A stretch of 64,000 bases of DNA from assembly GCA_963924555.1 (NCBI GenBank), contig OZ004592.1, forward strand, positions 4,712,001-4,776,000, read 5' to 3'. The notes beneath the pieces were generated by a model. It ran no database searches, was not told the DNA's origin, and was given only the letters and a program-made list of their open reading frames with translations. Below, piece by piece: positions 4,444-64,000 of this stretch. Made by a program: the position numbers and the translations under genes. Numbering within the stretch: the first letter of the stretch is position 1; each line of letters opens with the position of its first letter. The stretch is from Crambe crambe. Taxonomy: Eukaryota > Porifera > Demospongiae > Poecilosclerida > Crambeidae.

Positions 4444-13428
<8,985 letters not shown>

Positions 13429-13747: not shown

Positions 13748-23363
<9,616 letters not shown>

Positions 23364-24183: not shown

Positions 24184-39499
<15,316 letters not shown>

Positions 39500-40071: not shown

Positions 40072-43000
40072 TTAATTTTGGTTTGTACTTTGACCCCCAC
40101 TGATTCCATTTCCTGATGATTCATAAGCATTATTTATGACCATGTCATCATCTTTACCAGTTTCATGTTGCTGACCAATATAGACTTCCTGTATCTCTCG
40201 ACTACTTGCATCCTGTATGCTGGCTGTCTCATATCTTGATGGATCCATTACATTTCCACCACTGCATACAGCACTGCTGGGTGATTTCTGGCGCTTTTCA
40301 TTGCGCGAGAACATACGACTGCGATCACTCTCACCATCAAAGATGTGCAACTTTGAGTAGCCAGTAGAACCCACTTCATCCTTGACGGTGGAATATGTGT
40401 GAGATGTACTTGCACTTGTGCCAGTTTCATTCGGACTGAAAGGGATTTCATATGGCTGAGGTAGAGTACTTGATTCTTCTTGCTGCTGTTGATGACCATG
40501 AGTGAATATTTCCTGTTGGTTCGCATCAAGTGTAGAATAACCCTTTGAATTCATGCTGTCCAGCTTGGAATACTGATGTGCTTTATCGATATGCGAATAC
40601 TCCCTTGGATCGACTTGGGAATTGCTCAGAGAATTGCCATGAGTGTTGTCCAGTTTGGAATAACTCAATTCATTCTCCACTTCGGAGTAACCTGCAGCTG
40701 AGGTGTCCAGTGAGAAGCTGTTTCCAGTTTTATTGTTTGAGCAGGGCGTGGTGGGCTTGCTGTACGTGTGGGAACCCGAATCCGACGTGTTTGAAGAGTG
40801 AAGCAAAGTGTGCTGAGGTACAGAAGTAGACTGGTAACTTCTCGAACTCTCCAACTCTGCATAGTTGTCGACATTATGTGGTGACGAGGCAACATCTGTT
40901 TGTGTGTAAAGGATGTTTGTCACAGTCCTCTCGTCCGCATTGGTTGGTTGTGGTTTCGAGCTCAGCTCATAATTGATGTTAGACCTGCAGGATATGGTAT
41001 ACAACAGAAAGGAAGTAGCCATAATAATGCTCAGTCATGCTTGCTGAATTCTATGTTTTCTCCAATGTTTGGAGCAGTACATAGCTACCCTTCAAAATTG
41101 GTGTACAACTACAACTCCATTGGTCAACCATCAAATGATTTAAAACTCTGACAAAGAGTACAAAGGACAGCTGGCAAGTACCCTCAGGCCCTCTTTGCAG
41201 TTCTGTAGCATGTAATAATTATAGCTAATAGACCTGTAACAGAAGCCTGAGGCTATAGTAGAACCTATTGTGATATATCTGGCTATATATGTAAACTTTA
41301 CTCATGGACCACCAGGCACCAGTGAAAATATAATGAGGAAATGAAATCATATAATAACAATGTGGTCATTGTAAACACAGTTCTGCTCCCTGACCACATG
41401 CAGTTCACCACAATAAACTTATTTGGTATAACAAAGTGTCCAAGTTTAAAATCTATGACATTTGGCTCCATCAGAGAACATGATAATCTGGTCAGAGCTC
41501 AGACTACTAGGTTGGGTTGAAGTGCCTACCTAGACTGCCTCACCCTTGTAACTAAATGTACAGCAGCTCTAAGCCAACATGCTTGAAAATGACTCATAAG
41601 TTAAAGAAACTTGGCGAGACATAAATTATATCTGAAAGATGATGGTAATACTATTATCAAGCACACCCTGATTAGGCAATAAACAGTGAAAACAGCTCAA
41701 CCACAACATCCCTAAGGGCATATCCCCTCAGGGCATATCTTGATTTCTTATACTAGATGCAGAGTAATGATCACTATTTATGGTTTAACCATTGTTTACC
41801 TTTCTGGCTACAACAACTATGATAATATGAGGTATGCATGGATTAATTTTGTCCATAAAGAATGAGAAATAGGTAGTGGCTTTTAATCCTTTCATGATCC
41901 ATGCAGTTGTGCAACAATAGAACAAATTGTATACACCTATTCCCCAAACCAATTAACCTGCAATGGACAGTAGCTATCGACCATGAATTAAGGAAATAAT
42001 TACGTATAGCTAGCTGCAAACCTCTGAGCAGGAAAGGTGTAAGTTTCAATATGGTGTTTCACAATGTTTTGTTTAGAGGTCATATAGTGTCTGGATAACA
42101 TTACACAGGTAAGTGAGTTTTCATAGCATGTTTGTTTTTGGTATGAGTGATTACTGTATATCACACACAGACTGAATATCAACTTGTTTGACTTACATTG
42201 CAGTCCCATTCTTGTCCAAAATGACTTTACTACTCCCCATCTTGCACTTTTTCCTCAGAATCAGTGCTAGGAAGATCCCACCACACAACAACAGGAGGAC
42301 CAGCACCCCACACACCACTCCAAGAACAATGCCGACTACAGTAGGGGGAGCTGGTGTGTTATCAGCAACATTATCAGCAGTGTTAGCAGCAGTGCCAGTG
42401 CCAGTGCCATCAGTGCCAGTGCCAGTACTAGTGCTAGCAGCAGTAGCAGTTGTACATGTGGAAGTGGTGGCAATATCTGTATTTCCAGATCTTGAGCCAC
42501 TACTTGTGTTGGTACCTTCCTCAGTACTGTCACCACGTCTTGATTCTGCATACCCCCCAAAAGCTTTGAGACTCTATTTTTATTTATGAGTAATTATTAG
42601 TATACCTGGACAGTTTAGTCTGACTCGTGAACATAATTGGAATACTGATATTGACTGACACTGGTCAAACCCTATCTCATCCCCAGTACATGTACAGTGT
42701 GATGTAGAGATTCCTCTAGAGTAAGATATTGCACCAGTTCCACTTCCATCTATAAGAAAATTAATTATTATGATGTAGTACAAACAAAAGACTTTGATGT
42801 GTATTTACTGGCATTGTTGGTACTGAGTCCAAGCTGTCTGCACAATACTCTAGCAATTTCAGGAGTGAAATTTTCATAGCATAGTCCAGCTCTAAATCCA
42901 GATTCACATATCTCCACCCTTCCTTCAGTTGATGTTATATTATCCGTCAGCCTCACTTCACCATTATTATTATTACAAGTTGGATCTAATGGATTCAGTA

Positions 43001-43622
43001 CACATCCAAATTGTATACTAGTGGCAAGTAGTGGATTTATTGTTATGCACCTTACCATGAACAAATATACTTGATTATCCAAATTACTTACCTCTGCAGT
43101 ACAGGCCCACATCGCTACAATTGCCTGGTGCAGTAGTGCTTGTATGCATGCACTCAGTGATATTGTTCTCTGTTCCTTGACAGGAGACATTACTAATGGC
43201 AGACGACTCATTTCCTATACCATAGGATCCCATTGGAAAAACACCACCTGGAGAAGAACCAAAGATCATCTCTCTGCCAGTGGTTCAAGTGTATGTGCCT
43301 GGATTCACCTTCATCATGTCCCAACTGTCTGCATACTACTCTAACAGTAGTTGTATTAATACTGCCTCCAGGGTGACACCATCTTGCCCAAACTCCTCCC
43401 TCATAGACCTTCACACGTCCCTCAAACTCATTGGGTCCTCCAACCAGTCTCACATCTCCATTATTTTCTGCTACATGTTAAATCACTCCTTACTAGCTCA
43501 ACTCGGTTAAAGCTGCATGCAGTTTATCTGCTACCCATGTATCTCTTACTTGCATAGCAGTAATAGTGGAGAAGACAGCAGAATATTATTGCTCTTGCAG
43601 TGATCACGAAATAAGATGCCAT
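40072..43622 (-). CDS. SRCR transmembrane receptor with tyrosine-motif-rich tail (unit 1, intact)
   Basis: Seven exons on the minus strand, phase-consistent, 685 residues: 43550-43622, 43309-43470, 43092-43247, 42809-43069, 42606-42749, 42197-42545, 40072-40984. Residues 1-24 form a signal peptide. SRCR 1 (about 28-130) has GGVWARWC, VRVVCRQLG and NNITEC. SRCR 2 (about 140-265) has EGRVEIC, ARVLCRQLG and FDQCQS. A Ser/Thr/Gly stalk (266-330) leads to one helix (about 334-362) and a basic RKKCK stop. The last exon encodes a tail of about 304 residues with 16 tyrosines, including YAEL, YSEV, YSKL (three), YSHI, YSTL and YSTV. YSKL and YSTL are separated by seven residues, which fits ITAM spacing. 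The acceptor before exon 2 is a NAGNAG site (tagcag). Family knowledge: SRCR receptors bind microbial or self ligands. Tail signalling through SH2 proteins is inference. Confidence 0.88.
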
Positions 43623-46683: not shown

Positions 46684-46893
46684 TGCTCAGCTGCTAGACG
46701 AGTCATGTGGTGGAAGTGTCTTTATGCCATGATTTCATGATTTAATTTCCTCTTTTGACCACATCCGATATATCAACTTCCTACTTACTCATTTTTCTAC
46801 GCATGCGCTACAGCCACCATTACGTAATTACCACAAGAATTATAAAGCCAGCTAAGCGCGCCTAGGCTCTAGCTATGTAGTTTCGAAGGGAAA
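46684..46893. promoter_or_regulatory. Divergent promoter of unit 2 (SRCR pseudogene / DED)
   Basis: 210 bp between the two opposed start codons, conserved with 43623-43813. It keeps GCATGCGC (46801-46808) and TTACGTAA (46820-46827) at the same relative order and spacing, and adds a short insertion with aagcgcgcc near the DED side. Confidence 0.6.
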
Positions 46894-48759
46894 ATGACTA
46901 CGATTAGTGAACACTTCGTGCTTCTGACACAAATTTCGAGTGCTCTCTCGCAATGGGACCTCAAGAATCTGATATTCTGCTGTGGAGATGTTTTGTTTGA
47001 GGCTGCAGCCGAGAAAATTGAAAGTGGAATTGACTTATTCAGAACTTTGAAGCACCACAATAAACTGGAACCAGGTCACTATGAATACTTGAGAGAGCGC
47101 CTGAGGGCAATTGGAAGAGTGGACTTGGCCAAGAAGCTACCCAGTCCAATTGAAGCCATGATCTATCGAGTCCCCTCAAATAAGAGATCATTTTTCCTCT
47201 GGGGAGGATATTCTCAAGAAGATTCTAATTGCCATCCACTTAATCTTGCTAGCCCTCCACCCTCTCCAAGCAAGACTGTGGCTGATTGTTCTCCTGTTGA
47301 TGCATCTTTCTCATTTAGAGGTCTATTACTGAAAGTTGCTAAGGAGTTGACTTCAGACGACGTATCAAAACTAGCATACCTCTTTGATGATCACTTGTCA
47401 CTTGACAAGCACAGGAGTTCAAAGGCAGGTGATGCTACAAAGTTGCTGCAAGACCTGGAAAAAGTTGGTGCCATTGATCCAAGTGAACCCACAATGCTGG
47501 TTAGTTCTCTGCATGAGATTGGCAGGAAGGACTTGGCCAATTTGCTTGTTTCAACTCTGACACCTCAGTCACTGTTATCCAGCCTGGATCATCCTCATCA
47601 ACTCTTAGGGATTAAAATCTCCATGCTCAAGAGCAAACAAGGATGCTATTCATCACAGCGTAAATTCATTGCCACACTCACAAAATGTGATAGATCCACT
47701 TATCAAAAGCATCTTGTAGATCCGCTGACAAAGAATGTGGATATTTCTTATGACTACCATACAATGCAGCATCACTCAATGGATATCTTTACATCCATAA
47801 GAGAATCTAGGAAATTGGATCAGATCCTTACTTTGACTCTCCCCGATATCTACGACTTTAGCGAGGTATACTTCCAAACTATTTACCATTATGCAGACTG
47901 TGATAGTGTCAAAATAAGCACCCTTCGAAATTTATTTCAAGTGTCTCACGATTGCTATGAAAGATTTGATGAAGAAATAAAGACAGTTCAATGGAATACA
48001 AAACTCCAAAGATATGTCAAGAATGAATTCACTCAAAGACGAACGCCTCTTGGAACTCCTGCTCTGAATGCTGTTAAGTGTATCTACGAAGTCTGCAGTG
48101 AGCTCTATGGTGGTAGTGACATTGAGGCAGCAATGGAGAAAGCTGATCAGAAACTTTACATGTTGGAATACAGCCATTATTCCTGGTGTCGTAGAAAAAT
48201 CATGACACAATGGTTAGAAAGTATCTTGTATTTGCTGGTTGATAAAGATGACGCTTTAAAGGGCGAGAACTTGTATGACCCTCTCTTGTTGCGCGAAATA
48301 TTGCTAAAGATAGTATCTAAATATAGAGATCGAGTGATCAGCAGCTATGATGAGCTTTCGAGTATCATTGGAGAAAATTTGGCTGAAAGACTGACTGAAA
48401 AATTACACCTTGAAGGAATCAGTATCAATAACAAAACTGAATCTAATTCATTGACAAGTAACAATGATTCCAATGCTTATGTCAAGAGCTTAGGTGTGCC
48501 AATATATTCCTATCTACTGCTGTTGCTTCACTTCTCTTATTTTGGTAGCCAAAACTTAAACCTTAGTGAGATTTTTTCACGGCTAAAGAGATATCATTGG
48601 AATTCCATATCTGACAAGGTATCAGTGACATGCTTGATAAGAATTGTCAGGAATGCAATGAGTGCAAATGAGGTCCAAGTGGATAAGTTCAGGAAGAAGG
48701 CTACTGAGCTAAATGCTCTATGTGCTCCTGTTGTGGACTACATCATATCGTCATATTGA
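46894..48759 (+). CDS. Intronless tandem death-effector-domain protein with unassigned C-terminus (unit 2)
   Basis: 621 residues in one exon. DED1 (about 7-82) runs from LLTQISSALSQWDLKNLIF to GRVDLAKKL. A Ser/Pro linker follows, then DED2 (about 139-220) from FSFRGLLLKVAKEL to GRKDLANLL. Both carry the RxDL motif of DEDs (residues 75-78 and 211-214). The pair resembles the prodomain of caspase-8/10 or c-FLIP, but no caspase fold follows: I see no QACxG-like active site. Residues 221-621 match only the paralogue at 50883 in what I can recognise. They are strongly conserved in blocks such as SLDHPHQLLGIKISML, EFTQRRTPLGTPAL, YEVC.ELYGGSDIE, LEYSHYSWC and YLLLLLHFSYFGS. Expected role: death-fold adaptor or regulator of DED assemblies; the C-terminal function is unknown. 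It is divergently paired with the SRCR pseudogene. Confidence 0.85.
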   Translation: MTTISEHFVLLTQISSALSQWDLKNLIFCCGDVLFEAAAEKIESGIDLFRTLKHHNKLEPGHYEYLRERLRAIGRVDLAKKLPSPIEAMIYRVPSNKRSFFLWGGYSQEDSNCHPLNLASPPPSPSKTVADCSPVDASFSFRGLLLKVAKELTSDDVSKLAYLFDDHLSLDKHRSSKAGDATKLLQDLEKVGAIDPSEPTMLVSSLHEIGRKDLANLLVSTLTPQSLLSSLDHPHQLLGIKISMLKSKQGCYSSQRKFIATLTKCDRSTYQKHLVDPLTKNVDISYDYHTMQHHSMDIFTSIRESRKLDQILTLTLPDIYDFSEVYFQTIYHYADCDSVKISTLRNLFQVSHDCYERFDEEIKTVQWNTKLQRYVKNEFTQRRTPLGTPALNAVKCIYEVCSELYGGSDIEAAMEKADQKLYMLEYSHYSWCRRKIMTQWLESILYLLVDKDDALKGENLYDPLLLREILLKIVSKYRDRVISSYDELSSIIGENLAERLTEKLHLEGISINNKTESNSLTSNNDSNAYVKSLGVPIYSYLLLLLHFSYFGSQNLNLSEIFSRLKRYHWNSISDKVSVTCLIRIVRNAMSANEVQVDKFRKKATELNALCAPVVDYIISSY

Positions 48760-50754: not shown

Positions 50755-50882
50755 CCCCCCCGGACGTGCATAAGCTTATGCGCATATGGACTTGCGTATA
50801 ACTTAGCCCCTCCCAAGCGTATATCTAGTCGCTTAGTATTATCAGCTAAAGGCTAATTAGCTAGCTAGTCACTGGAAATAGA

Positions 50883-52712
50883 ATGGCTACCAAACATTTC
50901 TTGCTTCTGACGCAGATTTCAAGTGCTCTCTCGCAATGGGACCTCAAGAATCTGATATTCTGCTGTGGAGATGTTTTGTTTGAGGCTGCAGCTGAGAAAA
51001 TTGAAAGTGGAATTGACTTATTCAGAACTTTGAAGCACCACAATAAACTGGAACCAGGTCGTTATGAATACTTGAGAGAGTGTCTGAGGGCAATCGGAAG
51101 GATGGACTTGGCCAAGAAACTACCCAGTCCAATTGAAACCATGATCTATCAAGTCCCCTCACATGAAAGATCATTAATCTTTGCAGAAGGATCGGATCAA
51201 GCAGATCATAATGATCCTTCAAGAAGTGCAACATCAACTGATCATCCTCCCATGGAAGTAGAATCTTTCTCATTTAGAGCCCTATTACTGAAAGTTGCCA
51301 AGGAGTTGACTTCAGACGATGTGTCCAGATTAGCATACCTGTTTAATGATCAGCTGTCACTAGACAAGCCAAAGGCGAATGATGCCACAGTGTTGCTGCA
51401 GCAGCTTGAAAAGGTTGGTGCCATTAATCCAAGAAAACCAACATCACTGGTCAGTTCTCTGCATGAGATAGGCAGGAAAGACATGGCTGGTTTGCTTGTC
51501 TCACTCCTCACTCCTCAATCCTTATTGTCAAGTCTGGATCATCCCCATCAACTCTTAGGCATTAAAATCTCAATGCTCAAGAATAAGCGAGGATGCTATA
51601 CATTTCAACGAAACTTCATTGCTACAGTCGCAAAGTGTGATAGATCTACCTATGAAAACTACTTTGTAGCTCCTTTGATGAAAAATGGTATCATTTTTTA
51701 TGACGACCACACTATACGGTGTCACTCCACAGATCTCTATGCCTTCGTGAGAGAATCTGGGAAATTAGATCAGCTCCTTCAATCCACTCTCCCTGATGTT
51801 TACGACTTTAATGAGACTTATTTCAAAGCTATGTATCACTATGTAAGTCGTGATTGTGTCGAGGTGAGCAAACTTCAGTCTTTCCTCAGTGTATGTCATG
51901 GTTGCTACAAAAGATTTGATGAAGAAATAAGCTCAGTTCCATGGAACATGACATTACGAAAAGATGTCGAAAAAGAATTCACTCAAAGACGAACGCCTCT
52001 TGGAACCCCTGCCCTGAAAGCTATCAAATGCATTTATGAAGTCTGCAATGAACTCTATGGTGGTAGTGACATTGAGGAAGCTATGAAAGACATGGATAAT
52101 AAACTCTATGTATTGGAATATAGCCATTATTCCTGGTGCTGTAGAAGGCTCATGATACAATGGCTAGAGAGTATCTTATGCTTGCTGGTTGATAAAGAAG
52201 ATTCGTTGAGGGGTACGAATTACAACCCTCTTCTATTGCAGGAAGTATTGCTGAAGATAGTATCAAAATACCAGGATGAGATCAGTAGCATTTACATCAA
52301 GGTCTCAAATATCATTGGAAAAGAAGTGGCTGAAAGACTATCTGTAAAGTTACACTGTGAGGGTATCAGTATCAATAACGACATTGGACCTGGATCCGTT
52401 CTGTGGCCAAGTGGTAATGATTCCAATGCATATGTCAAGAGATTAAGTGTACCGATTTATACCTATCTTCTGCTTTTACTTCACTTCTCTTATTTTGGTA
52501 GCTGTAATTTAAAACTCAGTGAGATCTTCCCAAGACTAAGAGAACTTCATTTGATTACAGTGTCTGATAAGTTGTCAGTGACATGTTTGATAAGAGTGGT
52601 CCGAAATGTGATGAGTGCATACGAGGCACAAGTGGACGTATTCCGGGAGAAGGCTATGGAACTGAACGCTTCGTGTGCTCCCGTCATAGACTACATTGTA
52701 TCATCACAATGA
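50883..52712 (+). CDS. Intronless tandem death-effector-domain protein with unassigned C-terminus (copy 3)
   Basis: 609 residues in one exon, collinear with the protein at 46894. DED1 has LSQWDLKNLIFCCGDVLF and GRMDLAKKL. DED2 has FSFRALLLKVAKELTSDD and GRKDMAGLL (RxDL relaxed to RKDM). The linker between the DEDs is different and shorter. The C-terminal region keeps EFTQRRTPLGTPAL, LEYSHYSWC and the YLLLLLHFSYFGS block and ends in a similar VIDYIVSSQ. No SRCR gene lies upstream; 48760-50882 holds only MITEs and the C tract. ATTAAA at 52800-52805, about 90 bp after the stop, is a candidate polyadenylation signal. Confidence 0.85.
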   Translation: MATKHFLLLTQISSALSQWDLKNLIFCCGDVLFEAAAEKIESGIDLFRTLKHHNKLEPGRYEYLRECLRAIGRMDLAKKLPSPIETMIYQVPSHERSLIFAEGSDQADHNDPSRSATSTDHPPMEVESFSFRALLLKVAKELTSDDVSRLAYLFNDQLSLDKPKANDATVLLQQLEKVGAINPRKPTSLVSSLHEIGRKDMAGLLVSLLTPQSLLSSLDHPHQLLGIKISMLKNKRGCYTFQRNFIATVAKCDRSTYENYFVAPLMKNGIIFYDDHTIRCHSTDLYAFVRESGKLDQLLQSTLPDVYDFNETYFKAMYHYVSRDCVEVSKLQSFLSVCHGCYKRFDEEISSVPWNMTLRKDVEKEFTQRRTPLGTPALKAIKCIYEVCNELYGGSDIEEAMKDMDNKLYVLEYSHYSWCCRRLMIQWLESILCLLVDKEDSLRGTNYNPLLLQEVLLKIVSKYQDEISSIYIKVSNIIGKEVAERLSVKLHCEGISINNDIGPGSVLWPSGNDSNAYVKRLSVPIYTYLLLLLHFSYFGSCNLKLSEIFPRLRELHLITVSDKLSVTCLIRVVRNVMSAYEAQVDVFREKAMELNASCAPVIDYIVSSQ

Positions 52713-53654: not shown

Positions 53655-56600
53655 TTAAGGCCTTGCTATTGACAAGCTATTGTTTGATATCTGCTCTGCT
53701 ATTGATTGTGCTAGTTCACTCAATCCAATATCTTCCAGTACAGCAATTAGTGTTCCCCACGAAACAGGCTTTCTCCCTCCCCCACTCAACCATTCTTGGA
53801 AGATGCGGCGATTGATGTCTTGTGCGTTTCTACATAGCTCTTTTTCCAGGGCAGTAATTCGAACTCCAGTATCATCTTCTAACAGAAATGTTCCAAATTC
53901 GAAATATTTGATTCCAATTTCTTGAGCTAAGTTCACTTTGGAATCTTTCAGAGGGAAACGGATGATATCCATCATTTTGGGGGGTTTGGACATGGAAAGT
54001 CCTGAGATGGAAAACTAACTTTACAACTTTATAATAAGAAACAAATTAATAGTAATTAGCTATTACTTCCCAGAAGAAAGAATGCTATAAATTAACAGTA
54101 GTTACTGCATATGGAATAGCTGCATGTCTCAATGTGAATTTTGGAGGTGAACCCAACTTTCTTTGTGATAGTGTTATAATTACAATATACCTTTCTTAGA
54201 AGAATGCTCCTCCTGATTACACCACAGCTTGTGCCTAGGAGATAGATCTCCAAACACATTGCTGTTCTGACTGCAGATCCAGACTCCATCCCCGAAAGTA
54301 GCAATGTGAGGATCCTCACCTCCACATGGACAGAGCAGTGCTTTTGATGGGATGGAATTGTTGTAGCCAAGGACTAAAGTTGTTTTCTTCACACCTGTAA
54401 ATATGGCTTGAGAAACAAAAGAACAAAGCTTGCAGCAAACTATCTGGGCTGTGTTTACGTGAATTTGAAAATGAGTGAATGTGTCTATCAGTGTAACAGA
54501 GCCAGGGTAGCCAGGGACCGAAAACTGGACACAATTGCGATTGAGGCAAGCCGGAGTGTTAGAATGAGGAAGCAATACTATTTCCCAAGGACAAGGAAAC
54601 TGGTTGTCAGGAGAGATAAGAAAGCATACGAGGCTGCAGTAAGTACCGAGACGAGGACCCCCAAGAGGGAAGGCCAGAGCAAGGGGAGCAATAGGAGAAT
54701 CATTGGAGACACAATATTCGTTAACCTTCCCTGTTTCAAGGACAGGAAGGAGGGCAGGCATGATGTACTCTGAAGTACTAAAGTCAGCTATGATCAGCAA
54801 CTTTTTAAAGAGCTTGACCAGATCTACAGGAGTAAAGATTTCAGGTACATAATGCTTGTCAAATTCTTTCCTCTGAAGAAGATCTAAGCTAATAATACCA
54901 TAATCTTTAAACTTCTGTAAATCTACAAGTGCATGAACTGGGCTACTACTGGCATTTTCCCTCAAGCAGTAGATCTTCTCTACCAACTCGGTCACTTTGT
55001 CCAAGAGGACTTGAGGGTTAGTGAACACTATATCATCCAGAATCTCAGGGAAATAGAAGATTACTGAGATTTCATCTAGAAACTGGAGAGCTGCATCAAG
55101 TGAATGCTCATCAAAGTAAAGCTTTTCTGCTGCTTTAAGGCATTCTTTTTGGCTTAGAACACCTCTACCTAAAGAAATGCTGACTTCTTCTAGGAGTATT
55201 TCCAAAGAGAAATACTGCAGAGGCACATCTACAGGGACATTACTACACTTGCTCAAGATTATACTTTGGATATTTTTTGCAATGCCCTTATCTAATCCTT
55301 CAGGTACTTTGGCATTGACTGGAAAGATCAGTTCATTTTCTGACAAGTTGTAGTAGATGACTTCATTCTTGAATGTTGGAAGCAACAGTTCTGCTAACTT
55401 CTTGTTCTTCTCCTTTCGTGTTTCAGTTGTGCACAGGTGCTCTTTGTCTCTGTGGGTCCCCACGATCATAATTTTGGAGCACCCACTTTTACTGTTGGGG
55501 GAAGATCTGTGGGTGTTCAAGGTACGAAGGCAGTGCTTCAGCAGTTGCTCGTTGGACTGAGCTGATTGGTAAGGGGTCCCAACACGCTTCCCACTCCCAT
55601 CAAAATACTCCACCATGGGCTTGATGGCAAGCTCTTCTGATAGCTTGAAGACAAAGATGTAGAGCGTCATACGACGAAGGAATACTGGAAGTACCTCATG
55701 GAACTGTGGCTGTCCTCCAGAGTCGATCAAGTGGAGTTTGCGGAAGGTGGGTAAGGCTTCATCTAGGTCGAGATAGTCGTCCATTAGCTGCACTAGGTCA
55801 TCATGTGTGGAGATGGACAATAACAAGTCAGATTGAGAAACTTTCTCTATTTTTCTAGTAGATATTGGACTGGAAAATGAAACTGGGTGTACTGCTCTCG
55901 GATATCTGTCATGTATTGAAGACTTTTCTTCACTGCTGTATTCAGGATTTATGCTGCCAACATCTGTTTTAGTTATTATTTCACCAGAGTCAGAATCCTC
56001 ACTAGAAATTGTGCCTCTAGCATAGTACTGAGCATGAATTGCTTGTGCTAAGATTCGTTTTCTTTCTTTTGGAGAAAGCTGAACCCACTCTTCACCAGTT
56101 ACGTCGACATGAAATAGGGTGACTGGACGAGCTGCTAGAGGAGTGCTTATTCTGACTTCCCGTGGAGGATTACCCACAAACAGATCTGTGAAACTGGATT
56201 TACCTGTTCCAGGAGCACCAAACATGAGTATCTTATTAATGTCGGACTTGATGTGTCCTAGCTTCATCGCCTCATTATACAGTCGACGTGACTCAGAGGA
56301 ACCTGAAAGTAAGATTACAGTTGGGAGGATGGAAATCACTTTCACTATCAAGCTGAAATAAATTTTAAGATCATCAGTGATTGAAGTTATATCACAATAC
56401 TATTGGCTCTTCATGAGAACTTGAAATTTTGCACATTTTTGCAAATTTCATGAAGTCACAGTATTGTTGATGCATCATCAAGTGGTTGTATGTCATAAAA
56501 TAAAAATTAGCCATGGTATTAACATATGATGATAGCATGAGTACTGTAGGAGTGAAGTTTTTGGGGTTGTTGCAGTGTGAGAATGGTCAATCTCTCTCAG

Positions 56601-59600
56601 CTGCACTTTATATAATTTCACCATGCGACTACAAAATAGTGCTGTTGATATACAGTCATATAATCCTGCTTCTTCCCTTAGCCTATCTCAAATTTTATTT
56701 CTCTAATGTGATGAATGCTCCATCCCTCGAGTATGCAAAATAATCATGAGAGCTTGAGACTCACCTTTAAGGTAGTGACTCTTCAACACTTCCAGCACTT
56801 GATGGTCACCATGCTGATATAGAGCATCAGCCACATGACGCCATGATGGAGATGGGTGGTTATCCAGGTACCATTCCCAGCAAACCTTCCTGCAAAGGGA
56901 CTCGCTGGAGTATTGATTTTGGATACTTTTAAGTATAGAGCCAGGGACATCAAGCCAAACACCAAAACCATACCAATTCCCCATGTCTTCTAGTAACAAA
57001 GTGAGATTAGCAAGTGTGAGGGAGGGGTCTGCAGGAAGAATAATTAAAACAATGTCATGAGGTGGTTAGACATAGGGATAAACTTAAAATACACCCAATG
57101 ATCATCATAGGATGTATATTAATTCTGCTCACCCTAATGCAGAATTAGCTATTATATCATGCATAATTATATTGTGGGGGACTAATGATTTGTACATCAT
57201 CTAAAATAGCCACTAAAAGCTATTATACATAACAGAGTTGGCATCACATAATTATAGTGTGACATTTTTGATGAGGGACAATTTTTAGCTCTACTAGATT
57301 GTGCATAGCTAATATGAAATGGTAAAATGGTGTTTATAGCTATTAATAAGTGAGGCAAGTAGCTAACTGCTGATCAAAAATCATTTGGTATATACAATAT
57401 TATAAGCACAAGACACCCTCAGTGAATGCGTGAGGGTTACAGTAGCTCCCTCTTCCCCTCTCCTTCTATAGAGGTATAATGGAGATATATACCAGTGAAG
57501 TGAAGCATAAAGCCTGGTGAGTTATGCTACAATGTTGAATTTACTATTCTATAATGTCGATCACTTCTGCACTCGACTGAAAGCTCTGATGCCCTCACAG
57601 AAGGCTCGCATCCATAAATTTCTTATTGAGAAAGTTGCACACATGTAGCTACACTATCAAAAATGAGTAGAGCAAGCTGCTGCATAAGAGATAGAAAATG
57701 ATACAACTTCCATAACTACATGAACAAAGAGACATGTCAATAAATTTCAGGTCCCTCATATTACAGTGTAGTAGTTGCAGAGTGAGCTACTTAGTTACTA
57801 CTGTAAATTGGGAAATTTTTGATGTTAATTTATTTTCATGGTCATGCACAACAACAAACCTTGTACAAAATGTTATATAATGTAAAAGCTAATTACCTAT
57901 AAGTAAGCTGTAACAATGAACATGGAAATTATAAACATGAATTAAATTTACTAAGTTAGCTATAATAATTACTATGAAGAAGATTGTTGGATCAATCACT
58001 CCAAAACTGACATTCTATAAGACTACTGTGATCTCTTCTCTGTGAATCCTAAATTTAGTCGTACAACACAGTAATGGAAGAAGAAAAGCTAACAGGGAGA
58101 TTTTTTTTTCTGAAAATGGAAACTGTTTCAATCCTTATAATCCCTGGGTTTCAAGATCAAGTCTCATAATAGGTATACCTGTCATACCTGCTGTTTTGTG
58201 TAGTCTACCATACACTTACCTTTATCAGGGTTAATCCTCCCTTTCACTTTCTGAAGTGCTCTATATTCCTCATAGTAGAGAAGTACCCCTGCCAGATGAT
58301 TCCAACTTGAGTATGAAGAGCTTCCAATGTAATATTGTGCCAGTTCCTTTCTGTAGTCCACATCTCTAGAGTACTGCTTCTTCATCTCTTCCTTCTTACG
58401 ACCAGGTATCTGAAGTATTTTCTCCAATCTACCATTATAAGTTTCACTTCTGTCCTTTGCACTCTCCACAGTATCTAGAGCGGCCAACAAACTGTGACAG
58501 GTCAGGCTCAAGTCTGGGGATGAACAAGGAATTCTAGTTGATACATAGACACTTAAGGAGGTTTCACACAGAGAGTAAGGGTAGGGGAAGGTTCACTTAT
58601 TACTTTATAGGCAGGCATAACTACCATAACACACACAAATAACATGCAAAACTTGGGGCATCCATTTTTATTTTATGATTAATGTTGAATTGATGACTAA
58701 TGAAGTGATTGCTTTAGATCAGGGACAATCTTTGTTCTGTATATCCAGCCAATAATCTCTACATATACGTCACACTGTAAGCTATGGGTAGCTTTAGGCA
58801 TCGTGTAGTAATGTACATAATTGTAGGCTGGATATATAAAACAAGATTGACCCCAATTTCCTTCTCAGTATACACACTTTTTTTTTTTCAATGTGTGTAT
58901 TGGAACAATTTAGCTAGTGTGCTTCATTCTTACAGTGTATATAACATGGTGACTTACACTGAGTAATCATATAGCCAGCTACGTAAGTTAAGATTTCACA
59001 TGTGTACGATTACTAAGCAAAAGTTATGATATCAATAATTATTTACACTTTTACTCGCTTGCCTTTTCAAATTGGCTACATAAACTGAACCAAAAATGAT
59101 GATTACCTACCTGTTTGTTTCTCTGCATAATTCCGTATCTTATCTGCTAAGTCACACCATCTCATATCAAGATTCCTTATAAGCATCCTCCAGGAGGCAT
59201 ACGGATCCCACAGAATCCAATACCTTACGATAGCTCCTACTCTTTCCCTGTGTGTGGAGTACTCTGATTCGATAGCACTTTTCTTAGAGAAAGGGATTCT
59301 CAGGCAGCCACAAACATCATCCCATGGAAGTTGTTCTAGGACTGCAGTAACATTATCCACACAGAGGGGAGGAGCTAAATTGAAAATGGAACAGGTAACA
59401 GGTATAATTATTACTTACATAGAGCTATATATTATTAAGATTTGAAACCATGGCTATGTAATGCTTATATTAACCCTCAGCGTATGTGCGAGGGTGGGCT
59501 TGCAAGGTTACAGTACTCTGTAGCGATTAGCTATATGTAAGAATCAAGAACAGTAAGCATTCAAAAAAGTAGCTAATCAAAAAGCATGGCAGCATGAATG

Positions 59601-61143
59601 TGATGTAATGAGTAATATGATCTATAGAACACTTTAATTTCAGCCTCAATAATGCCTAGATTTTTTTGTCAAAGGGTTAAGCTAATTCTGGAAAGAAGAT
59701 AAGATTTGTAGCTAAGTTTTATAATTAACTCTGCAGCTTGCAGCAATTGGAACGCTTCAACTTCAGCCTCAGTGATGTCTATATATAGGTGATAATTCCA
59801 GTGCTTAAATTACTCATTTTGATATAGATAGCTTCTACACAACCTGCATGTGCTCCATACAATTAATTTTGCTATTGTCAACCACTTACACTTGATAGAA
59901 TAACACAATGGAATACACATGCCATTTTAGACCGTGTAGCAAACATGCACTTCCAGCTGATCAGTGATCTCCTACTTAGCTATACTGTTAATACACACTC
60001 AGCCAGTTATGCCTTATGTGTGCACTGAGGATGCATTTCATTAGAATACTTCTGTACATTGTTCTATTTTGTAATTAGCTAGTTGTTAATAACATTTCGA
60101 GACCACTAATGAGCTGGAGGTGTTAAATACACAGCATATATGTTTTCATTTTGAATCGTCTATTAAATTGGCATGTGCAGTGTCCTGTATTATATGTAAC
60201 AAGTCCACATTTTCATTAATTTTTGAATAACCAGTGACCATCAGTGCCTGTGTTTATTAGGTACTGACATAAAGCACTTGGTTCTGTACAGAGTGGGCCA
60301 TGTGAGACTAGCATTGGCAGTCATGCAGATGAGTAGGTAATGGTCATATGATTCACTGCAAGCAATCGACCCAATTTAAACACTGGAGAGTACTGACATC
60401 ACTGAGGCTGAAGTTAATATTATACAGAATTGCTACTGGTTGCAGAGTCAATGTAACAGATACACATACAGAGATGCACAGACACACTGACTGAGTACAA
60501 GTACTGTAACCCTCGCACATGCGCTGAGGGTTAAAAATTACAATGGTGGGTGGGCAAGTAAGGGGCATCCATACATCAAGGCACACAAAGTAAACAGAAA
60601 CAGAAACAGTAATTTGAAGGTGATGGTGGTCTAGGCTAGGAATGACCTAGACAAACTGCATCAGACAAGCTGTAGATTAGCTGGGTCAGTAGAAATTATT
60701 TACTCCAGTCTATGGACTAGGATTTAGATTTTACATGGAAGAAATTCTCACAGTTTGACCAGACCTTTATCTTTCCCTCAGTTAGAAAAGAGCTTTATGC
60801 ATAGCTACATATATGGATATGCTAGCTAGTTACCTTTATTGGCTGCTCCTGTCTTGGGTCCAGGGTTTAGTTCCACGTCCCCAGAGAGCAATAGAATACC
60901 TAATAGGAACCAGGCTGGTCTGCCCTTTCCTCTAGAGCGGCGGATCCCTGGTCTTTCCCCCACTACTCTCCTCCATAGTCTCATCTTCCTCAAGTGGCCC
61001 TGTAAGAAGTCCTTGACAGCCAGAGCACAGGTCTTGTTCACCTGCATCACCTGATCAGGCTCGCCTTCCTTCTCAACACACCACTGATGTAGCAAAGAAA
61101 AGCACAGGCTGATCAAAGCGAAGCGAAAGAAAGACGAAATCAT
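53655..61143 (-). CDS. 2A-leader, triple death-domain, Roc/COR-like GTPase, death-domain protein
   Basis: Six exons, phase-consistent, 1196 residues: 60834-61143, 59111-59374, 58220-58513, 56765-57028, 54191-56302, 53655-54001. Exon 1 (1-103) has a hydrophobic start and ends WFLLGILLLSGDVELNPGP, a 2A-like peptide. Exons 2, 3 and 4 (104-191, 192-289, 290-377) each encode one death-fold domain (for example LPWDDVCGCLRIP, SYSSWNHLAGVLLYY, PSPSWRHVADALYQHG). Exon 5 has G1 GAPGTGKSS (about 406), G3 DSGGQ, a GTHRDKE motif in place of NKxD, then a COR-like part (LDEISVIFYFPE, FTNPQVLLDKV). Exon 6 encodes a last death domain (VSWGTLIAVLEDIGLSELAQ). All introns are phase 1. Family knowledge: ROCO proteins are GTP-regulated scaffolds, and DAPK1 also joins Roc-COR to a death domain. 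The N-terminal triple death fold and 2A are unusual. The start at 61143 could instead be Met54; a CCAAT box (61165-61169) is very close to the first ATG. Confidence 0.82.
57029..58219. other. Intron of the ROCO-like gene
   Basis: 1.2 kb of non-coding sequence. At about 57416-57445 it has caccctcagtgaatgcgtga followed by gggttacag, a decayed end of the CCCTCAGC MITE family. No second end was found. Confidence 0.4.
59474..60530. mobile_element. CCCTCAGC-type MITE, 1057 bp, in the first intron of the ROCO-like gene
   Basis: TTAA then CCCTCAGCgtatgtgcgag at the left; ctcgcacatgcGCTGAGGG then TTAA at the right (59470-59473, 60531-60534). The inverted ends continue through a ggttacagtact block. 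Same family as 27297-27860 and the relic near 57416. TTAA plus CCC ends suggest piggyBac-like mobilisation. Confidence 0.8.
60856..60882 (-). other. 2A-like ribosome-skipping motif coding site
   Basis: Codons 88-96 of the gene above read GDVELNPGP, an exact fit to D(V/I)ExNPGP, preceded by a hydrophobic WFLLGILLLS. The family mechanism is release after the Gly and restart at the final Pro (residues 95/96), which would separate a 95-residue leader from the rest of the protein. Confidence 0.85.
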
Positions 61144-64000
61144 GTCTGTTACTGTATGTCTGTGATTGGCGCAGCACTTCAGCGGTCCGTACGTACGTCG
61201 GTCCGCAGTCTAGTAATTTATGTAGTCTCGCAAACCGCGAGGAGACTATTCCGCAGCCCCGGCCCTAGCTCTAGCTTGCAGCTTGGCCGCTATGTGATCA
61301 CGTGAGGTTTGACACTATGATACTTCATCCACAGGGCCGGTGGTTACCATATCAGAATTGTGCAGTTGAGTTATTATGGAGACTATGAGTATTATGCAAT
61401 GGTGGCACTATAATTGGTGTCATAATTTTATTTGTGCCTGTGTCAGTGTTCATCTCTCTCAGTGTCTCTGTGGTCCCATTCTTATGTGTCTGTAAGAAAA
61501 ATAGTCAAGGGACTGGAAGAAACTATCCTGATTCATTTGCCCCCAATGGAATAAGAAAATCTGACTGTTTTATCATTACAGGGTTTTGCGTCACATTGAA
61601 TTCCAAAAGCACCATGCACATACTCAAATTGCTTGGCAACATTGGCAAAAGTGGGTCCATTACTGGCTTGTTATAGAAGGAAGAGCTTGTGAAATCATAC
61701 TGGATGACAATGGAATGGGTTCTACCAGTTTGCCTAGGGTACTAGTTTGAATAACATGTGCATAGCACTTTTGGAATTCAATGTGCAAAGATCACAGCAC
61801 CCTACTACATCATTAACCCTCAGGATATGCACAAGTGTGTGCGTGTGTGTGTATTAGCTATATTCTTCCTTGGGCAATCCATAATTCGTTCCACTGCTGT
61901 CACAAGTGCAGAGATGGTCCATGGTGTGGTGGAATCCTGCATACACACACAACTGCCACTTCTTCACATCCACTATATAGCAATTTTAAAATGTCCTATC
62001 TGAATATCTGCTAACAAAAGTGGCAATGAAAGTGAGAGGGTGAGGGCAGTTGCATTCCTCTACTACAATGTGAAGAACTTGTTTCTATAAGTGGACATGC
62101 AAATGGAAGAAACAACCACATAGACTACCTGTTCAGATCATGGATACTGACAATTAATATGCAGGTACCACATGATCATAAATAGGGATACTACTGATTT
62201 CTAAATGCCAACAGGCATAACTACAGGTGAAATATAAACCCGTAGTTGTCAATGACTATTGCAGTCTAATCATACATAGCTATACATACCAGTCAGAATT
62301 AAGTTATGATATTGCGGATCTCAGGTACCAAATGAACACAAAAATCTCCTTTGTAAATATAACTAGCTACCCTGAGCTACACCATCAGAAGTTCCAACTC
62401 CTCAAGCTCTTAGTAATCTAGCTATTCGATTGGTCAAATCTATCGAATGATGTTACTTCAATAGCTATATATTCATTATCCACCTTTCAACGTATATTTC
62501 TGAGAGTAGCTAGCTAGCTAGCATAAAACGAATTTCTAGCTGGCACTCATCAAGCTGGCATTCTATGCTGGCATTCTGCACTCGGGCTGTGGCTCTCGGG
62601 CTTCTAAATAATACCATAAGTCTCAGTGTCTAACTATTATAGCTAAAGCCTTACATAGTGTAGCTAGAGTAAATGATCAAAGATCGACACACTATATCTC
62701 AGGAACGACAGTATGGAGAACCAAGTTTAAACTATCATAATGGAGTACAAACCTTCCTTGTTCTGTTCCCTAAAAATTGTTTTAGTACCTGTTGTTATTT
62801 CAAAGCAATAGCTAGAAATGTAGCTTCACTTAAACCCATCTATATCTGGAAGAAAAGTTCTATTTGTGGACACCCACAAAAAAGACTTCTGAAATCAAAG
62901 CAGTAAGTTACTAAGCAATTTTCCCGAAGTGGTACACTGCTCTGGAACACCCTTGAAGATATAACAGTGTAAATCTCCAACAATGACCTGGGTGTGGCTG
63001 ATTCAGAGGTCGATATTTAATGTGTCCGGGTACGCGCATGCGTAATTATGACAGGAGCCAGTTGACAAGCTTTTTGTCAAAACCATTGAATTTTGTATTG
63101 AAATAAGTGGGGCTCTAAGTGTAAGTTTTAATTTTGGATATAGTTATAGCTTTATAAGGCTAAACTAGCAAGGTGGAGTCTATATTATGTAGACTATTGC
63201 CACTGCAGTTAAACTGATCTCAAGCAGAATTATCATGAATTTGATAGGTCAAGGTTGTCTCCAGCAAGTTCAATAATGCTGCCATACTATCCTTTAAAGA
63301 GAGGATTTTGAAGGTATCCTCATCTTCCACGAAACTTTGCATTTATGTAGAGTAAGTGATCAATCATCAGACAGATCAATTACTGGACACTTTTTCTGAC
63401 ATCTAGTTTATACCAGTACCTATAATTTAGGTATCAAAAGATAGCCCATTGAAAACTGATTCAGAATCCTGATTTTCAGTCATAGTTGTTAATTCATATA
63501 GATTTTATACATCATTAAAGCAGGTGTCCGAAAAAATCAATAATCATCATATTTCAGACGGCTACCAATTTATGGCAGAGTTTTCTAGGTATGATTGTCA
63601 AAATTGGAAGACAGGAAGTTCTATCCTTCCCCTATCTGTATCTCTATTTATAGAAGTCAAGCTTCAAATACCACTGCATTATAAACCTGAAATTAAAGGC
63701 ACCTTTAGTTAATCAATATTCAGACAGCAAAAAATGGGTTGATTAGTAATTTGACCCTTCACACTGAATATAAGCCAGATTCAACACCACCAGTGGAATC
63801 AGCATCCCCTTTTTGCCTATTGTAACAATTTTCGTAACTAAACTATAAACATTTATGATATGAATAATTGTTCACATTTTCTCAATTTTTACATGGCTAT
63901 AGAGAGCTGCACCTACAGATCACAAAAAACAAGCAATAATGACAGTAACAATAGTACCATTTATTTTCGGGACTTGAAACTTTGGGTAAGTCACATTCAG
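61144..64000. other. Right-hand intergenic region, no gene seen
   Basis: Upstream of the ROCO-like gene. Open frames here show no domain pattern. It contains the hairpin at 61592-61785, a partial TTAACCCTCAG end near 61813, and a CGCGCATGCG (NRF1-like) site at 63033-63042. Confidence 0.5.
61592..61785. repeat. Inverted repeat, 30-bp arms, foldback element
   Basis: cacattgaattccaaaagca at 61592 returns inverted as tgcatagcacttttggaatt ending in caatgtg at 61785. Weaker pairing continues inward (cttggcaa / ttgcctagg). Likely a small MITE; target duplication not found. Confidence 0.65.

Follow-up and report, generated by a model that had tools for sequence, protein, structure and literature searches.

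The first exon of a Roco-like gene in the sponge Crambe crambe encodes a leader that ends in an exact 2A (StopGo) core, and we consider it probable that this exon acts as a ribosome-skipping leader, giving a leaderless cytosolic body together with a minority fusion directed to the ER, and that it has spread as an exon module. The 2A element, its context, its conservation and its placement before different bodies are read from the sequence. The gene lies on the minus strand of the window, the whole stretch of 64,000 nucleotides that was analysed, and was modelled with five exons joined by GT/AG sites (61143-60834, 59374-59111, 58513-58220, 57028-56765 and 56302-54180) in a frame that is open to the stop at 54180. 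Variation at nearby splice sites gave 18 open combinations in all; one of these, the model with symmetrical death exons, places every one of the four introns in phase 1 and gives a protein of 1084 residues. The features of the gene, in the order in which they are read, are:

61340-61475, minus strand: upstream region containing two blocks shared with the paralog at 5.44 Mb of contig C15 (blastn), possible promoter
60834-61143, minus strand: exon 1, the 2A leader, residues 1-103 plus one base, with open frame, ATG and phase-1 donor
61081-61143, minus strand: signal-peptide-like N-terminal segment, residues 1-21, with a hydropathy peak at residues 5-19
60964-60990, minus strand: conserved basic block RKMRLWRRV, residues 52-60, with a pN/pS of 0.10, one of two minima in the leader
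60856-60912, minus strand: 2A (StopGo) element WFLLGILLLSGDVELNPG/P, residues 78-96, with exact core, L-rich context and a core dN/dS of 0.09
59111-59374, minus strand: exon 2, FADD-like death domain by predicted structure and PDB matches
58220-58513, minus strand: exon 3, death-like domain, judged a paralog of exons 2 and 4 from alignment only
56765-57028, minus strand: exon 4, death-like domain (Pfam Death E 0.003, below the cut-off)
54180-56302, minus strand: exon 5, Roc-COR-like (Pfam Roc E 5e-4 and COR-A E 8e-4, both below the cut-off)

The ATG of exon 1 at 61143 lies within an open frame spanning 61209-60826 on the minus strand, and its position is kept in most copies of the leader family to which the window gene belongs (family A). 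From this ATG the frame runs through MISSFFRFALISLCFSLLHQW to WFLLGILLLSGDVELNPGP, which corresponds to residues 78-96 of the leader (window positions 60912-60856). The leader end reads SGDVELNPG/P96, with the skip bond between G95 and P96; the in-frame octapeptide DVELNPGP (residues 89-96) conforms to the D(V/I)ExNPGP core and is directly preceded by ILLLSG, a permissive upstream context of the L-rich class. An exact 2A core at the N-terminus of a death-fold protein, with its proline at residue 96, had been proposed in the first-pass annotation and is borne out by the sequence and the model. The same annotation had described a hydrophobic stretch before the core and had likened the arrangement to a 2A situated inside a signal peptide. 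The stretch is present, but it represents the usual L-rich 2A context, and the comparison with a 2A-containing signal peptide had to be abandoned: the signal-like segment occupies residues 1-21 and is separated from the 2A at residues 78-96 by a gap of about 57 residues. Hydropathy peaks were found at residues 5-19 and 76-90. Residues 24-76 carry a net charge of +8, and RKMRLWRRV sits 35-43 residues ahead of the skip bond. A Pfam search of exon 1 returned no families. The donor after 60834 (AATAAAG/GTAACT) is in phase 1 and compatible with the death-fold exon 2.

Comparison of the gene with its paralog at C15:5.44 Mb by blastn revealed alignments for exon 1 (61150-60826, 94%), exon 2 (59372-59103, 88%) and the upstream blocks 61475-61377 (85%) and 61372-61340 (100%), and none for the intron between exons 1 and 2. 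Such exon-only alignment is the pattern expected of a real, spliced gene, and we infer that exon 1 is joined to exon 2 by splicing. The predicted structure of exon 2 is a six-helix bundle (pLDDT 88.9), as required of a death fold, and its best PDB matches were the Fas/FADD death domains, with TM of 0.72-0.77 and a probability of 1.00, at a best E of only 0.016 and with none at 0.001. Pfam Death gave no match for exon 2 of either the window gene or its paralog, nor for exon 3, which shares at most 24% identity with exon 2. In exon 5, the GTPase motifs GAPGTGKSS (P-loop) and DSGGQ are read directly, and the sub-cut-off Pfam matches occur in the expected order, Roc then COR-A. A phmmer search of exon 5 against solved structures gave no matches at 0.01; the Roc part gave three chance-level matches at 10, two of which are small GTPases, and an NCBIfam search of exon 5 gave none. 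The designation as a death-domain ROCO gene is supported by the death fold, the GTPase motifs and the order of the Roc and COR-A matches. ROCO identity of the body is not proved, because the Pfam Roc and COR-A scores remained below their cut-offs and the predicted fold of the Roc part failed, with a pLDDT as low as 36.

Several other genes were seen in the window. Adjoining the Roco gene, two tandem single-exon-like genes on the plus strand (46873-48756 and 50865-52709) each contain two death effector domain stretches (DED E 4e-31 and 4e-30, respectively). Near-identical tandem exons for ABC transporter nucleotide-binding domains are found at 12300-12956, 22199-22837 and 38052-38780 on the plus strand (Pfam on the second only, E 4e-31). 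Leucine-rich-repeat open reading frames with an NLR-like look, cut by the window edge, occupy 1-2497 on the plus strand (Pfam on 1742-2497), and a scavenger receptor cysteine-rich domain lies at 42771-43214 on the minus strand (SRCR E 3e-6).

A pattern search for the octapeptide D(V/I)ExNPGP across the 143 Mb of the Crambe crambe genome (143,139,886 in total) was used to determine how the core is distributed. D-V-E-x-N-P-G-P was found at 167 places, 87 of them with T and 44 with L at x, and D-I-E-x-N-P-G-P at 40 places. The 207 sites given by both patterns together compare with zero for either of the reversed patterns, used as controls over the same 143 Mb, and a chance origin of the cores was therefore rejected. 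At least 203 of the 207 cores could be mapped; they are spread over 15 contigs, most of them on C10, C9, C8 and C5. Two of the remaining four are the copies L090 and L093 described below, and two are without position. When 64 distinct sites were viewed in their protein context, G preceded the D of the core in all 64 and the L-rich hexapeptide typical of the D-type StopGo class was present in 62, the octapeptide alone having served as query; many of these sites are paralogous and thus do not represent 64 independent events. Both exceptions to the hexapeptide are damaged, L024 by a stop in the leader and L073, a copy on C11, by an insert that splits it. The insert in L073 (C11:2666300-2666850) is about 500 bases long, has a long inverted repeat and the look of a miniature transposon, and parts a family E leader from its core. 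The sponge element resembles the viral StopGo motifs 2/6 described by Li et al. 2026 (PMC12846837) in having D at p12, G at p11 and an L-rich hexapeptide ending in (A/S/C)G. It differs from them in being cellular, within the exon of a host gene, and in having L at p15, where these authors tie S to motifs 2/6.

The sequences preceding the core appear to be of at least eight dissimilar kinds. Ten representative leaders, taken without their last 20 or so residues, showed no mutual match at E 0.05 in short-query blastp, a comparison in which separate origin and fast divergence are indistinguishable; families E and J may nevertheless be remotely related. The shortest leader (MDPGSSQPLNLSFSLVLLSALLMLSGDVELNPGP, on C10) has 34 residues when the nearest Met is taken as its start, and those of families A, C and E combine a separate hydrophobic segment with a basic stretch. 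The core was intact and in place in 122 of 126 leader copies from four families (A, C, E and F). With queries that lacked the core, it was found to be kept in 63 of 64 near-full matches of family E (62 listed cores and L090 with DVEINPGP; the exception is the split copy), in 27 of 28 of family F (the exception, L094, is without any) and in 9 of 10 of family C (eight listed and L093 with DVESNPGP; the tenth has an in-frame stop and was counted as not kept). For family A, where the query included the core, it was kept in 23 of the 24 best matches, among them the broken copy L024; the exception is L016 with DMELNPGP. These counts leave aside 5 of 69 family E matches that were shorter (one with core), 3 of 31 for family F and 5 of 15 for family C (none with core), and 16 of 40 weaker matches for family A.

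Selection on family A was estimated from 19 unique leaders. Over the whole leader dN/dS was 0.39; it was 0.20 in the last 20 residues and 0.09 in GDVELNPGP, where the synonymous difference amounts to 0.34. L016 (DME core), L024 (broken), L015 and L025 (no aligned Met) and one duplicate coding sequence were excluded, and the core value is slightly flattered by the exclusion of altered or broken copies such as L016 and L024. Along the leader, pN/pS showed two minima, one at the 2A end (0.11-0.12) and one at RKMRLWRRV (0.10), with weaker constraint in the windows between them (0.2 to 0.9). Two family A copies on C15 are separated by 4 synonymous and 12 amino-acid changes and are identical in their last 20 residues. 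Decayed pieces of family A leaders were also noted, repeated in tandem as 231-bp units (L036, C13:2951689-2954787), with NPRP for NPGP in the units seen.

The second minimum bears on a reading in which the leader is the product itself. Near-complete skipping would then make read-through irrelevant and yield two proteins, the death-fold body and a cationic peptide that is secreted or sits in a membrane, as would suit the net charge of +8 over residues 24-76 and a basic block that is constrained like the core. Also compatible with it are the skipping levels found by Li et al. 2026 (PMC12846837) for StopGo elements, which extend from 92.7% to almost 100%. The remaining leader is only loosely constrained, however, as reflected by the dN/dS over its whole length, and the families share no detected sequence beyond the 2A end, which would be odd for a common peptide function. 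We regard this reading as unlikely.

The bodies found downstream of the leaders are diverse. Family A precedes death-like exons and Roco on C15, Death-NACHT-LRR at 9.02 Mb on C5 (Death E 1e-9, NACHT E 1e-18), on C12 a Death domain of the kind found in the C5 Death-NACHT-LRR gene (E 3e-8) and, at L014, another death-like exon detected by a custom profile match only, with no Pfam match. Conversely, a family E leader (L088) precedes a Roco body of the window type with one extra death-like exon; here, the exon related to window exon 2 matched Pfam Death at E 7e-4, below the cut-off. Since one leader family is thus found before Roco, Death-NACHT-LRR and other death-like exons, and another leader before the same Roco body, we regard the leader as a shuffled module. 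Family F precedes a death-like exon without Pfam match followed by ankyrin-like repeats (by eye), and the Death matches downstream of families C and D do not reach the Pfam cut-off (E 3e-3, 4e-3 and 2e-4). The one family B locus scanned (L087, C1:3553500-3562000) has Ig domains downstream (Ig_3 E 3e-7); its 2A follows a transmembrane-like stretch and lies before the Ig domains, an odd site for a cytosol-releasing element. At L017 (C5:9225667-9228948), a PDZ open reading frame (E 9e-10) downstream of a family A leader may belong to a neighbouring gene. Loci L084, L085 and L050, which have different leaders, share a similar middle region without Pfam match after the death exon, with for example SAVDLxPCFPFL in L084 and L085 (by eye), perhaps an undescribed domain. 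Between two NLR genes with 2A leaders, an open frame of 734 residues without Pfam match was noted (L083, 5878-8079).

A profile built from eight death exons was applied to the 45 core sites with at least 1.1 kb of flank. A death-like open reading frame was detected within 1.5 kb in 17 of the 45 in sense and in none in antisense orientation, a result that is partly circular because five of the eight exons came from the 17 loci (L012, L084, L085, L086 and L088). The 28 sites without a death-like frame within 1.5 kb comprise nine of family B, twelve of family A at 4.58-6.31 Mb on C5 and seven others (L009, L016, L017, L020, L024, L054 and L055). L009 is the window gene; about 1.48 kb separates its core from the start of exon 2, a distance at the limit of the scanned locus. 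The twelve C5 leaders (L018-L019, L021-L022 and L025-L032) have all kept their cores; the leaders encoded at L018 and L019, two loci on opposite strands with 0.39 Mb between them, are the same, and in L089, one family A copy from this region, about 7.5 kb of downstream sequence was without clear body.

The association with Roco genes was quantified by a search with window exon 2, which gave 99 genome matches; the 78 under E 1e-10 were used and 21 weaker ones dropped. These 78 copies were paired with 203 of the 207 cores on the same strand. Within 21 kb, a core was found upstream of 22 of the 78 copies and downstream of 7; within 8 kb the numbers were 17 and 1, and within 4 kb 9 and 0. No listed core lay within 21 kb upstream of the other 56, which include the exon-2 copies of the Roco array at 3.86-4.55 Mb on C15. 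The link between core and Roco is thus real, but not universal. The Roc exon gave 523 first-look candidates, and all 61 that were scored exceeded 1000 bits. A very large Roco array extends over 1.58-3.84 Mb of C11. Together, C11 and C15 hold about 45 of the 61 Roc exons that were scored, and likewise of the exon-2 copies, and only some of these have a core nearby. Large Roco expansion, exon shuffling and a suggested immune role are also described for the brown algal ROCO families (PMC11378527). The algae shuffle the LRR exons of LRR-ROC-COR proteins, whereas in the sponge the 2A leader and death-like exons are concerned; 2A is unmentioned in the abstract of that study.

The orientation of these neighbours speaks to the origin of the cores. 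Sea urchin has non-LTR elements that bear 2As (Roulston et al. 2016, PMC4981915), and the sponge 2As could likewise be parts of non-LTR retrotransposons that came to lie near immune genes by chance. The strand of the death-like frames (17 of 45 against 0 of 45), the position of the cores within 8 kb of Roco exon 2 (17 of 78 copies with a core upstream, 1 of 78 with one downstream) and the continuation of the window gene into death-like and Roc exons all speak against this, and on this positional evidence we reject it as extremely improbable. The 56 Roco copies without a nearby core bear on a different concern: they indicate that Roco genes, taken as a class, can do without the motif, and in the window gene it might be inert, with exon 1 unjoined to exon 2 or the context non-skipping. 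The conserved donor and frame of family A, the exon-only alignment with the paralog, the strong constraint on the core and its canonical context all argue against inertness, which we consider very improbable.

The closest known system is the sea urchin NLR leader SpNLR2A (Strongylocentrotus purpuratus; Roulston et al. 2016, PMC4981915), for which skipping in vitro was about 80%, a qualitative estimate. When its skipping was abolished the cargo went mainly to the Golgi, and with the wild type it was cytoplasmic (PMC4981915). Li et al. 2026 (PMC12846837) describe StopGo as rare in cellular genes and give the urchin as an example of signal plus StopGo. In both animals an N-terminal 2A with canonical D(V/I)ExNPGP stands on large death-fold immune families, and the sponge Death-NACHT-LRR genes on C5 carry 2A as well. 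In SpNLR2A, the 26-residue 2A is the signal itself, unlike the window leader, whose signal-like segment is separate and lies about 57 residues ahead; sponge leader family D has a layout that resembles the urchin type (PMC4981915). The body of the window gene is Roco-like rather than NLR, whereas other family A copies do precede NACHT, and the sponge goes beyond SpNLR2A in having Roco and other bodies and several dissimilar leaders (PMC4981915). The skipping logic of the urchin can hold for the sponge leader with signal and 2A apart. The dual targeting put forward in the first-pass annotation thus finds partial support only: it is plausible via two separate elements, the signal-like segment and the 2A.

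In the reading that we favour, most ribosomes would release the leader at G95 and resume from P96, so that the death-domain/Roco protein would be made without leader and would be cytosolic; the released leader, with its own signal-like N-terminus, would be a separate product. A minority of ribosomes would read through, and the N-terminal segment would direct the resulting fusion to the ER. The sponge would have spread this leader as an exon module over many death-fold immune-type genes. That skipping takes place and to what level, where both products go and that the genes have an immune role we infer. The wild-type urchin product was mainly cytoplasmic in HeLa cells (PMC4981915), and the share of read-through may therefore be trivial.

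The basic block may add a regulatory layer to such a leader. In artificial signal-2A polyproteins, 2A can be blocked in cells, and not in lysate, by the sequence that lies 28-48 residues ahead of the skip site, an effect that de Felipe et al. 2010 (PMC2978324) attribute to translocon contact. The sponge leader shares with these constructs a separate N-terminal signal followed by a stretch and then the 2A, and RKMRLWRRV, 35-43 residues before the skip bond, falls in the 28-48 zone. On this ground we put forward that, in a translocon-bound ribosome, the block RKxRLWRRV at the exit port might stop skipping so that the whole death-fold protein becomes secretory, while in an undocked ribosome skipping would proceed and a cytosolic receptor would be freed. 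The artificial polyproteins are reporters in which the block of skipping is unwanted (PMC2978324); in the sponge, it would be the function. We regard this proposal as unlikely; RKMRLWRRV might equally be a nuclear-localisation-like or antimicrobial-like element, or simply part of the 2A context. If it were true, such leaders would sit on many receptor classes, and changes in targeting or elongation would shift many death-fold proteins together.

The 2A might also act as a throttle, at which some ribosomes drop off so that the dose of the death-fold protein stays low or tied to elongation stress. A link to eEF2 and stress was proposed by Roulston et al. 2016 (PMC4981915), and with some secretion signals StopGo terminates a significant share of ribosomes (Atkins 2016). 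A throttle would require neither the N-terminal signal-like segment nor the basic block, both of which are kept in family A, and we consider it improbable.

In a search of the open-licence literature, none of the papers listed dealt with sponge 2As. Rao et al. 2025 (Cell Reports 44, 115822), who surveyed 2As of eukaryotes and viruses, is outside that literature and may list sponge sequences, and we therefore claim no priority for the presence of 2As in sponges. To what was known, the present analysis adds that the leaders behave as exon modules and come in several dissimilar kinds, that Roco bodies carry them, and that the window leader consists of two parts. About 200 skipping sites, many of them fronting immune-type genes, suggest that the sponge uses a trick best known from viruses for routine gene control. 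Ribosome skipping would thereby become an ordinary gene-control tool of animals, one that two distant phyla apply to immune-type proteins, and the leaders, with their differing layouts, would offer a natural series on whether the level of skipping sets the location of a protein.
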